Source of the DNA: Curtobacterium sp. MCJR17_055
Lineage (GTDB): Bacteria > Actinomycetota > Actinomycetes > Actinomycetales > Microbacteriaceae
Reading direction: 5' to 3'
NCBI RefSeq assembly: GCF_003224335.1
Contig: NZ_QKLF01000003.1
Location: 1 to 64,000 of the forward strand
Length of the DNA stretch: 64,000 nt
Below are positions 4,896-28,845 of this stretch, piece by piece. Numbering within the stretch: position 1 is the first letter of the stretch; every line of letters starts with the position of its first letter. The position numbers and the translations under genes were made by a program. The notes under the pieces are model-generated. The model searched no databases. It was not told the origin of the DNA and saw only the letters and a program-made list of their open reading frames with translations.

Positions 4896-4971
4896 GGCCC
4901 CATCGTACAGTGGCCTAGTACGCCGCCCTCTCACGGCGGTAACGCGGGTTCGAATCCCGCTGGGGTCACCA
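4896..4971 (+). tRNA. tRNA-Glu (anticodon CTC), copy 1
   Basis: GGCCCCA (4896-4902) pairs with TGGGGTC (4961-4967), followed by discriminator A and an encoded CCA. The anticodon loop CTCTCAC gives CTC. The T arm GGGTTCGAATCCC is canonical. It is the first of two near-identical copies. Confidence 0.97.
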
Positions 4972-5004: not shown

Positions 5005-5080
5005 GGCCCCATCGTATAGCGGCCTAGTACGCTGCCCTCTCACGGCGGTAACGCGGGTTCGAATCCCGCTGGGGTCACCA
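5005..5080 (+). tRNA. tRNA-Glu (anticodon CTC), copy 2
   Basis: Same fold and anticodon as the copy 33 bases upstream, differing at only three positions, all in the 5' half (D-arm region and one anticodon stem base that becomes a T-G pair). Encoded CCA at 5078-5080. Both copies are probably transcribed together. Confidence 0.97.
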
Positions 5081-26604: not shown

Positions 26605-26624
26605 CCGACGGTCGGAGACGGACG

Positions 26625-26696
26625 GGAGGCTCCCCACCGGCCGGTTCCGGACCGACGCGCCAGCGGCGGGTCGGCCGTGACCGGTGGGGAGCCTCC
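26625..26696. terminator. Bidirectional terminator-like inverted repeat between smc and terC
   Basis: Perfect 16-base arms GGAGGCTCCCCACCGG (26625-26640) and its complement (26681-26696) enclose 40 bases that can form a smaller inner hairpin. It sits between two convergent genes and shares its GACGGGAGGC edge with the palindromes at 33234, 38818 and 61915. No T run follows on the plus strand. Confidence 0.6.
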
Positions 26697-26719
26697 AGTC
26701 AGGCGTGGGGAGGTGGCGA

Positions 26720-27748
26720 CTACTTCGCGTCGGCCTCGACGGCGTCCGCCGGCTCGCCGGTCGGGGTGAGGCCGCGCTGCTGGCGCTTCTTCGACACGAC
26801 GAGGCTCGCGACCGTCGCGACGGTGATCGTCAGGAGGATGAAGCCCAGCGAGAACCAGATCGGGATCTCGGGCGCCCACTCGACGTGCTGACCGCCGTTG
26901 ATGAACGGCACCTCGTTGACGTGCAGGGCGTGGAAGACGAGCTTCACGCCGATGAAGGCGAGGATGACGGCCAGGCCCTGACCGAGGTAGATGAGCCGCT
27001 CGAGCAGGCCGGCGATGAGGAAGTAGAGCTGGCGGAGACCGAGGAGCGAGAACGCGTTCGCGGTGAACACGATGAACGCGTCCTGCGTCAGCCCGAAGAT
27101 CGCGGGGATCGAGTCGAGCGCGAAGAGCACGTCCGTCAGGCCGATCGAGACCATGACGAGCAGCATCGGGGTGAAGAGGCGCTTGCCGTCGACCTTGGTG
27201 GTGAGGCGGTCACCGTCGTAGTGCTCGGAGGTCGGGATCACGCGGCGGAGCAGACGGATGAGCTTCGAGTCGCCCTCCTCGGCACCGTGTTCGTCGCCGC
27301 CCTTGGCCTGCGACCACGCGAGCCAGAACAGGAGGAGACCGAACAGGTAGAAGACCCACGAGAAGTTCTCGATGATCGTGACGCCGAGGGCGATGAAGAC
27401 ACCGCGCGCCACGAGGGCGATCGCGACACCGACGAGCAGGACCTTCTGCTGGAACTCCTTCGGCACCGCGAAGGTCGTCATGATGATGAGGAAGACGAAG
27501 AGGTTGTCGACCGACAACGCCTTCTCGGTCAACCAGCCGGCGAAGTACTCACCGCCGGCCTGTCCGCCGCCGAACACCCACACGCCGACACCGAACAGGA
27601 TCGCGAGCGCGATGTAGACGATGGACCAGAAGGCCGATTCGCGGATGTGCGGCACGTGCGGCGTGCGCACGTGCGAGAAGAAGTCGAACACGAGCAGGCC
27701 GAGGATGCCTGCGATCGTGAAGAGCCACACGTACAGGGGGACGTCCAT
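26720..27748 (-). CDS. TerC/Alx family membrane protein (probable manganese exporter)
   Basis: A 342-residue integral membrane protein. It has the two TerC signature stretches with conserved acidic residues, EKALSVDNLFVFLII and TDVLFALDSIPAIFGLTQD, plus about nine hydrophobic segments and a soluble charged loop (GGDEHGAEEGDSKLIRL...). Family members such as E. coli Alx and Bacillus proteins export manganese or help metallate secreted enzymes. The ATG at 27748 has a strong GGAGG at six bases. A yybP-ykoY manganese riboswitch precedes it, supporting a role in Mn(II) homeostasis. Smc converges on it. Confidence 0.9.
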   Translation of the reverse strand: MDVPLYVWLFTIAGILGLLVFDFFSHVRTPHVPHIRESAFWSIVYIALAILFGVGVWVFGGGQAGGEYFAGWLTEKALSVDNLFVFLIIMTTFAVPKEFQQKVLLVGVAIALVARGVFIALGVTIIENFSWVFYLFGLLLFWLAWSQAKGGDEHGAEEGDSKLIRLLRRVIPTSEHYDGDRLTTKVDGKRLFTPMLLVMVSIGLTDVLFALDSIPAIFGLTQDAFIVFTANAFSLLGLRQLYFLIAGLLERLIYLGQGLAVILAFIGVKLVFHALHVNEVPFINGGQHVEWAPEIPIWFSLGFILLTITVATVASLVVSKKRQQRGLTPTGEPADAVEADAK

Positions 27749-27754
27749 GGAGAG

Positions 27755-27762
27755 CCTCCAGG
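27755..27762 (-). promoter_or_regulatory. Ribosome binding site of terC, target of riboswitch pairing
   Basis: On the minus strand CCTGGAGG contains the Shine-Dalgarno GGAGG six bases before the ATG. It can pair over eight positions (one G-T wobble) with CCTTCAGG at 27809-27802, which includes the 3' strand of the riboswitch closing stem. The pairings are mutually exclusive. Confidence 0.6.
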
Positions 27763-27804
27763 TCAGGGGCGTGCCACACAGGGAAAGTGGGTACGCCGGA
27801 GCCT

Positions 27805-27920
27805 GAAGGTCTCTTCCGCCGCGGTCCTGTCCGGTGATCCGGTGGGCCGCGACCGACGCCCCGGGTCCGGGTCGTTCCGGGCCGTACTGACGGGGTCGCC
27901 GAGAGGGAATACTCCCCTTC
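27805..27920 (-). ncRNA. yybP-ykoY manganese riboswitch of terC
   Basis: Read on the minus strand, the element opens with GAAGGGGAGTA (27920-27910), holds CGTCAGTACGGCC after the first helix, and closes with GGAAGAGACCTTC (27817-27805). The ends pair as GAAGG/CCTTC (P1). An inner helix forms between GGCGACC near 27900-27894 and GGTCGC at 27854-27849. The GGGGAGTA loop and the GAGACCTT segment are the two conserved Mn(II)-docking loops of the family (Rfam RF00080). The downstream gene is a TerC protein, the classic partner. Likely action is on translation, since no poly-T hairpin follows. Confidence 0.82.
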
Positions 27921-27929
27921 GCGACTCCG

Positions 27930-27935
27930 ACCCTA
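27930..27935 (-). promoter_or_regulatory. -10 box of the riboswitch-terC transcript
   Basis: TAGGGT on the minus strand would start transcription near 27923, three bases before the riboswitch begins. This fits an RNA that consists of riboswitch, short linker and terC. Confidence 0.45.
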
Positions 27936-27963
27936 CCGAAGGCCGGCACCGAGTGGGCACCCG

Positions 27964-27969
27964 TAAGCT
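27964..27969 (+). promoter_or_regulatory. -10 box, leaderless start of ftsY
   Basis: TAAGCT ends six bases before the ftsY ATG. It is back to back with the terC promoter, about 30 bases away on the other strand. Confidence 0.5.
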
Positions 27970-27975
27970 GGGAAC

Positions 27976-28845
27976 ATGGCGAGTAGTTGGTCCCTGTCCT
28001 CCCGGCTCCGTGGTCTGTTCCAGCGGAAGACCATCGACGAGACGACGTGGGAGGACCTGGAGACGGCGCTGATCGGCGCGGACTTCGGCCCCGACATCTC
28101 CGAGGAGATCATCGAGGACCTCCGTGCGCGCGTCGCCCGGTACGACACGACGGACCCCGCCGACCTCAACCGCATGCTGCGCGAGGTGCTCGAGGAGCGG
28201 CTGTCGAAGCTCGACACGACGCTCAAGCTGAGCAACCGTCCCGCCGTGGTCCTCGTCGTCGGCGTCAACGGCGTCGGCAAGACCACCACCATCGGGAAGT
28301 TCGCGAAGTTCCTCCGCACCTACGACCGCACGGTCCTGGTCGGCGCCGCCGACACGTTCCGCGCCGCGGCCGTCGAGCAGGTCGCGACGTGGGCGCAGCG
28401 TGCCGGCGTCGACGTCGTCCGCCCCGCACAGCCCGGGCAGGACCCGGCGTCGGTGGCGTACCAGACCGTCGAGCGTGCGATCCGCGAGGGCACGGAGATC
28501 GTCGTCATCGACACCGCCGGCCGGCTGCACACGAAGGCCGGGCTGATGGACGAGCTCGGCAAGATCAAGCGCGTCGTCGAGAAGCAGACGGAGATCGCCG
28601 AGGTCCTGCTCGTGCTCGACGCGACGACCGGGCAGAACGGGCTCGCGCAGGCGCAGGCCTTCATCGAGGGCGCCGGGGTCACGGGACTCGTCATCACGAA
28701 GCTCGACGGGTCGGCCAAGGCAGGGTTCGTGCTCAGCGTGCAGGAGAAGACGGGCATCCCGATCAAGCTCATCGGCCAGGGCGAGGGCATCAACGACCTG
28801 ACCGGCTTCACGCCGCACGTCTTCGTGCAGAACCTGGTCGGGTGA
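27976..28845 (+). CDS. ftsY: Signal recognition particle receptor FtsY
   Basis: A 289-residue SRP GTPase that docks SRP-ribosome complexes at the membrane. It consists almost only of the N and G domains: P loop GVNGVGKTTTIGKFA, DTFRAAAVEQ, DTAGRLHTK, TKLDGSAKAG and the C-terminal GQGEGINDLTGF. The long acidic A domain of E. coli FtsY is missing; instead a short basic N-terminus (WSLSSRLRGLFQRK) may bind membrane. Its stop overlaps the next gene's GTG. It lies 3.7 kb from ffh. Confidence 0.96.
   Translation: MASSWSLSSRLRGLFQRKTIDETTWEDLETALIGADFGPDISEEIIEDLRARVARYDTTDPADLNRMLREVLEERLSKLDTTLKLSNRPAVVLVVGVNGVGKTTTIGKFAKFLRTYDRTVLVGAADTFRAAAVEQVATWAQRAGVDVVRPAQPGQDPASVAYQTVERAIREGTEIVVIDTAGRLHTKAGLMDELGKIKRVVEKQTEIAEVLLVLDATTGQNGLAQAQAFIEGAGVTGLVITKLDGSAKAGFVLSVQEKTGIPIKLIGQGEGINDLTGFTPHVFVQNLVG

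Follow-up and report, generated by a model that had tools for sequence, protein, structure and literature searches.

A probable yybP-ykoY manganese riboswitch acting on translation in the terC leader of Curtobacterium and related actinobacteria

The leader of terC in Curtobacterium sp. MCJR17_055 is very probably a translational Mn2+ riboswitch of the yybP-ykoY family. Comparative analysis of actinobacterial sequences reveals a covarying aptamer carrying the L1 and L3 motifs of the yybP-ykoY family, together with a predicted helix at the Shine-Dalgarno (SD) sequence that excludes P1.1, the closing helix of the aptamer. Family, terC target and translation-switch logic had all been proposed in an initial annotation of this DNA, and they find comparative support here in a covariance model (R1), the L1 and L3 motifs, base-pair covariation and the SD helix. 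In the mechanism that we envisage, the SD hairpin would win at low Mn2+ and leave terC untranslated, while Mn2+ would dock L1 against L3 and so stabilise P1.1. The stabilised P1.1 would then withdraw CCUUC from the SD, and the freed SD would allow TerC, an Alx-type metal homeostasis membrane protein, to be made. That the element binds Mn2+, in which direction terC responds and what TerC does here are inferred from the family.

Organization of the terC leader

The window, i.e. the whole stretch of 64,000 nucleotides analysed (contig NZ_QKLF01000003.1, positions 1 to 64,000), was read directly on its minus strand from 27920 to 27740, and the letters agree base for base with the initial annotation. 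This reading bears out a 116-base element bracketed before terC, with ends that pair as GAAGG/CCTTC. Likewise, all eight positions of the pairing proposed between CCTTCAGG and CCTGGAGG hold, one of them as a G-U pair. The features of the leader are as follows:

Starts at 27920, minus strand: GAAGGGGAGTA, by direct reading
Ends at 27805, minus strand: GGAAGAGACCTTC, by direct reading (27920-27805 = 116 bases)
27805..27920, minus strand: aptamer, P1.1 to P1.1, 116 bases (R1, E 1.2e-19 in its own genome; covariation)
27916..27920, minus strand: P1.1 5' strand GAAGG, pairing with CCUUC (two-sided GC/CG and AU/GC exchanges in relatives)
27910..27915, minus strand: L1 5' side GGAGUA, invariant in the 34-sequence alignment
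27906..27909, minus strand: P1.2 5' strand UUCC, covarying with GGAA
27883..27892, minus strand: L3 strand CGUCAGUACG, which reads CGTCANNAC in 100 of 101 leaders
27818..27853, minus strand: P4 region, of variable length and with approximate borders (two-sided changes in four of the six modelled pairs)
27817-27814, minus strand: P1.2 3' strand GGAA (alignment and model)
27813-27810, minus strand: L1 3' side GAGA (alignment and model)
27802..27809, minus strand: switch strand CCUUCAGG (CCTTCAGG in DNA), i.e. the P1.1 3' strand CCUUC plus AGG, with GAAGG or the SD strand as alternative partners
27755..27762, minus strand: SD strand CCUGGAGG (CCTGGAGG in DNA), forming eight pairs with CCUUCAGG
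27759-27755, minus strand: SD core GGAGG, within CCUGGAGG
26720..27748, minus strand: terC, 342 amino acids and stop, ATG at 27748 (Pfam TerC, E 2.1e-49)

The TerC protein also falls into NCBIfam TIGR03718 (R_switched_Alx), with 365.5 bits against a cut-off of 246.4. Among named relatives of this terC, those from Curtobacterium are the nearest. Further along the window, a long inverted repeat (26621-26700; arms of 38 bases, 76% complementary, with a 4-base spacer) separates smc from terC, two convergent genes, and is possibly a two-way terminator, and a tandem pair of highly similar tRNA genes occupies 4896-4968 and 5005-5077.

Library family and covariance model

The initial annotation had expected a search with the Rfam family RF00080 to detect the element, and had named the lack of a match as refuting. 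Indeed, RF00080 gives no match in the window at its gathering score, and at E up to 10 none in the 501 bases 27600-28100 or anywhere in the genome. Among 197 genomes of the class, however, RF00080 reaches its cut-off in none and, at E up to 0.1, has a match in 11. With this library, E. coli mntP likewise scores 41.6, under the gathering score of 45, for which reason we do not treat that score as defining the family. In alignments to RF00080, GGGGAGUAG stays unpaired and the model stops before the GAGACC strand, so that the closing helix P1.1 lies outside it.

R1 was built from 34 elements, with the window among its training sequences. In its own genome the window scores 94.1 bits, and a second match (E 0.72) was dropped as chance. 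At E up to 0.01, R1 has matches in 186 of 296 class genomes. When given five of the 11 weak RF00080 loci (L111-L114, L116), it finds all five (E 1.6e-10 to 2e-6), and with filters off it matches E. coli mntP at 379-483 (E 3.6e-4), which is not reported with the default filters. We do not take the absent RF00080 match as refuting, because RF00080 reaches its cut-off in none of the 197 class genomes and leaves mntP below it, and because R1 joins the actinobacterial elements with RF00080/mntP members.

Seven of the 11 weak RF00080 loci were read, the others (L115, L119-L121) being short partial matches that were left out. Five of the seven precede exporter genes, namely GDT1 (L113, L114, L116) and Na/Ca exchanger genes (L111, L112); the remaining two, L117 and L118, are without resemblance to the element. 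Weak Rfam matches to mir-1205 and Acido-1 on the opposite strand of 27600-28100 were taken as chance, as were four weak matches in 15 of 80 relatives, none of them RF00080. A plasmid search with the element gave short weak matches in four records.

When 29 further R1 loci were fetched, 26 were found to precede TerC. The three strong matches that do not (L127, L147, L152) are followed by genes for two proteins of about 290 amino acids that match no Pfam family and for a GreA/GreB-like protein. The set of terC leaders used below comprises the window, 75 and 25 further leaders, 101 in all; the three loci just named were left out for their lack of TerC, and L141, which has TerC, was missed by the regular expression.

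Conservation and covariation of the aptamer

Both motifs of the element, GGGGAGTA and a GAGACC-type strand, occur in this order upstream of terC in 75 of 80 loci; the L1 motif GGGGAGUA has GAGA opposite and is closed by P1.1. The five loci that do not show both motifs (L057, L071, L076, L077, L080) were dropped; the upstream region of L080 reads N, and the other four are terC relatives that do not have the GGGGAGTA element. L076 shares its strain with L047, which has the element, and L077 shares its strain with L052, so that the terC genes at L076 and L077 are second copies. Loci L081-L110, many of which are repeat genomes, are left out of these counts.

A consensus fold of 39 aligned elements contains 25 pairs, of which 14 are changed on both sides. 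In the 34-sequence alignment (A2), 95.0% of the cells of a 24-pair structure are paired, versus 36.3-58.0% when the partners are slid by 1-3 columns. Two-sided changes affect 120 cells and the covariation score reaches 0.458; shuffling gives 39.9 and 0.223, and none of 500 shuffles attains either observed value. Twelve pairs with double changes were reached by 16 of 500 shuffles, and the count of further pair types gives no signal (272 of 500). The covarying helices are P1.1, P1.2, P3.1 and P4. In P1.1, 98.8% of the cells are paired and two of the five pairs are changed on both sides; the helix reads GAAGG/CCUUC here and CAAGG/CCUUG or GGAGG/CCUCC in other leaders.

The L3 sequence has a single exception among the 101 leaders, L146, which still has UCA. 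In the corresponding L. lactis loop, UCA41AU43UC, N7 of A41 is reported to contact Mn2+ (PMC6754395), and by alignment to this UCA41 the A at 27888 would occupy the position of the Mn-sensing adenosine. Between GGGGAGTA and L3, terC leaders have 16-21 nt, versus 28 in E. coli mntP. A P2 hairpin is absent from the consensus fold of the aligned elements, and since the short L1-L3 distance leaves no room for one, the aptamer would be a three-way junction. Given the report of a three-way member, we do not treat P2 or a four-way junction as defining the family.

These motifs also bear on the signal. The element could be yybP-ykoY-like and answer chiefly to Ca2+, another metal or alkaline pH, and precedents are on record, as additional Ca2+ binding has been reported for an S. 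pneumoniae member (PMC9495176) and a response to pH for the E. coli alx element (PMC3874183). The retention of the L1 motif and of UCA in L3, and a downstream gene of TerC/Alx type, nevertheless argue against this, and we regard a different principal cue as quite improbable.

A switch helix between P1.1 and the Shine-Dalgarno sequence

CCUUC is common to P1.1 and to the SD helix, and the two helices therefore cannot coexist. In the window, opening of the SD core is predicted to cost 8.3 kcal/mol with CCUUC free and 3.3 kcal/mol with CCUUC occupied, and only one of 300 shuffled linkers reaches this SD-masking difference. The corresponding drop exceeds 2 kcal/mol in 79 of the 85 leaders outside a CAAGG type described below. 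The minimum free energy fold of the whole leader does not form the aptamer.

For the 101 terC leaders we compared two arms, ten bases beginning with the P1.1 3' strand and ten bases ending at the SD core, a core that reads GGAGG or GAAGG in 78 of them. In 40 of the 42 distinct arm pairs, the pairing runs unbroken from the first base over seven or more positions. Averaged over the three flank positions outside P1.1, 2.81 of 3 are paired versus 2.13 in permuted arms, a value reached in none of 5000 permutations, which ignore kinship. With one representative for each of the nine distinct arms the difference is weaker (2.56 vs 2.19, reached in 71 of 10000, kinship again ignored). The pairs are exchanged at position 4 (U-A 37, U-G 17, C-G 23, unpaired 1), position 6 (A-U 45, G-U 7, G-C 25, unpaired 1) and position 8 (G-C 38, G-U 2, U-A 21, C-G 7, unpaired 10), and as read from the aligned arms these exchanges are compensatory between lineages. 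For example, the arms are CCUUCAGG/CCUGAAGG in Curtobacterium, CCUUCAGUAC/GUACUGAAGG in Frigoribacterium and CCUCCGGU/ACCGGAGG in Geodermatophilaceae.

The initial annotation had looked to covariation of CCTTCAGG with the ribosome binding site in relatives, and such covariation is present, if with exceptions among the lineages. Outside the CAAGG type, 81 of 85 leaders have at least seven contiguous pairs, with compensatory changes, under a permissive count that admits other registers and 30 bases around the assigned start; those that fall short are L150 and three leaders of Geodermatophilus with one A-G mismatch (L061, L064, L068). None of the 16 CAAGG-type leaders has this pairing.

The same aptamer might instead exert its control mainly on transcription, by Mn-dependent termination, Rho-driven or intrinsic, with SD masking as a secondary effect. 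Such wiring is known within the family: Rho is reported to act in the E. coli mntP leader alongside the translational switch (PMC11647493), and L. lactis is described as employing a transcriptional switch (PMC11087558). Here, however, no terminator-like site occurs in 27600-28100, and it is with the SD that the switch strand covaries. We therefore judge predominantly transcriptional control unlikely and retain a switch in translation as the reading of this leader.

Leaders of the CAAGG type

In 16 leaders (L053-L055, L060, L063, L065-L067, L070, L072, L073, L078, L079, L129, L131, L132) the aptamer is kept, yet its P1.1 3' strand masks the SD in none of them. As far as hosts are named, these leaders come from Microbacterium, Plantibacter, Agromyces, Mycetocola, Rathayibacter, Naasia, two Microbacteriaceae and Pseudarthrobacter, the last of which we take to belong to a family other than Microbacteriaceae. 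The bases before the SD are predicted to pair with the 5' strand CAAGGGG at a mean duplex energy of -9.6, versus -7.4 when shuffled (0 of 300). A run of at least six pairs with CAAGGGG, formed by CCCCUUG-like bases beside the SD, is present in ten of the 16 and missing from L053, L070, L073, L078, L129 and L132. One pair of this helix is A-U in one of the two Plantibacter leaders L055 and L079 and G-C in the other, but L070 breaks the pattern.

Tentatively, one actinobacterial Mn aptamer may thus be wired to terC in two ways, a possibility that we would not yet favour: most leaders would mask the SD by the P1.1 3' strand, while in the CAAGG type CCCCUUG-like bases would compete for CAAGGGG on the 5' side; aptamer and gene would have been kept and the expression platform exchanged.

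The neighbouring ftsY gene

The opposite strand carries an ftsY-like gene that begins at 27976, 55 bases beyond the aptamer, and this proximity raises the question of whether the conservation stems from the promoter or leader of the divergent gene rather than from the terC RNA. ftsY is matched in just 53 of 100 element-bearing loci (which span at most about 1500 bases past the match), however, and the element remains with terC where ftsY is not found. Together with the base-pair covariation, this in effect refutes an origin on the ftsY side.

Significance and comparison with known systems

RNA-based Mn control of terC is probably much under-annotated in the class, given that R1 has matches in 186 of 296 genomes and RF00080 reaches its cut-off in none of 197. 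The R1 alignment can serve as a seed for an improved library family, and the switch, supported by covariation, is open to two-arm mutation. By title and abstract opening, with most subscription journals outside the scope of the search, we found no paper on this SD covariation or on an actinobacterial terC switch.

A close mechanistic counterpart is E. coli mntP, reported as a Mn-dependent translational riboswitch whose ribosome binding site is masked without Mn and free with it (PMC11647493). The mntP element (RF00080) shares with the terC leader the L1 motif, the P1.1 switch helix and the GAGACC strand. It differs in having a P2 hairpin (RF00080 alignment), a longer L1-L3 distance (28 vs 16-21) and another exporter gene downstream. 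Among actinobacteria, C. glutamicum terC (cg2157) has the same gene behind a leader of the same family, a likeness known here from the published annotation, which gives a yybP-ykoY leader with an Rfam score of 49.13 bits and an observed transcript (PMC3890552). For S. pneumoniae mgtA a three-way junction is reported, as proposed here, with another target and control of transcription (PMC9495176). In the gammaproteobacterium Vibrio parahaemolyticus, mneA and terC are said to lie downstream of a Mn-sensing element (PMC13274385). Family and mechanism are hence already known from E. coli mntP and C. glutamicum terC, and what is added here is comparative evidence for the switch.
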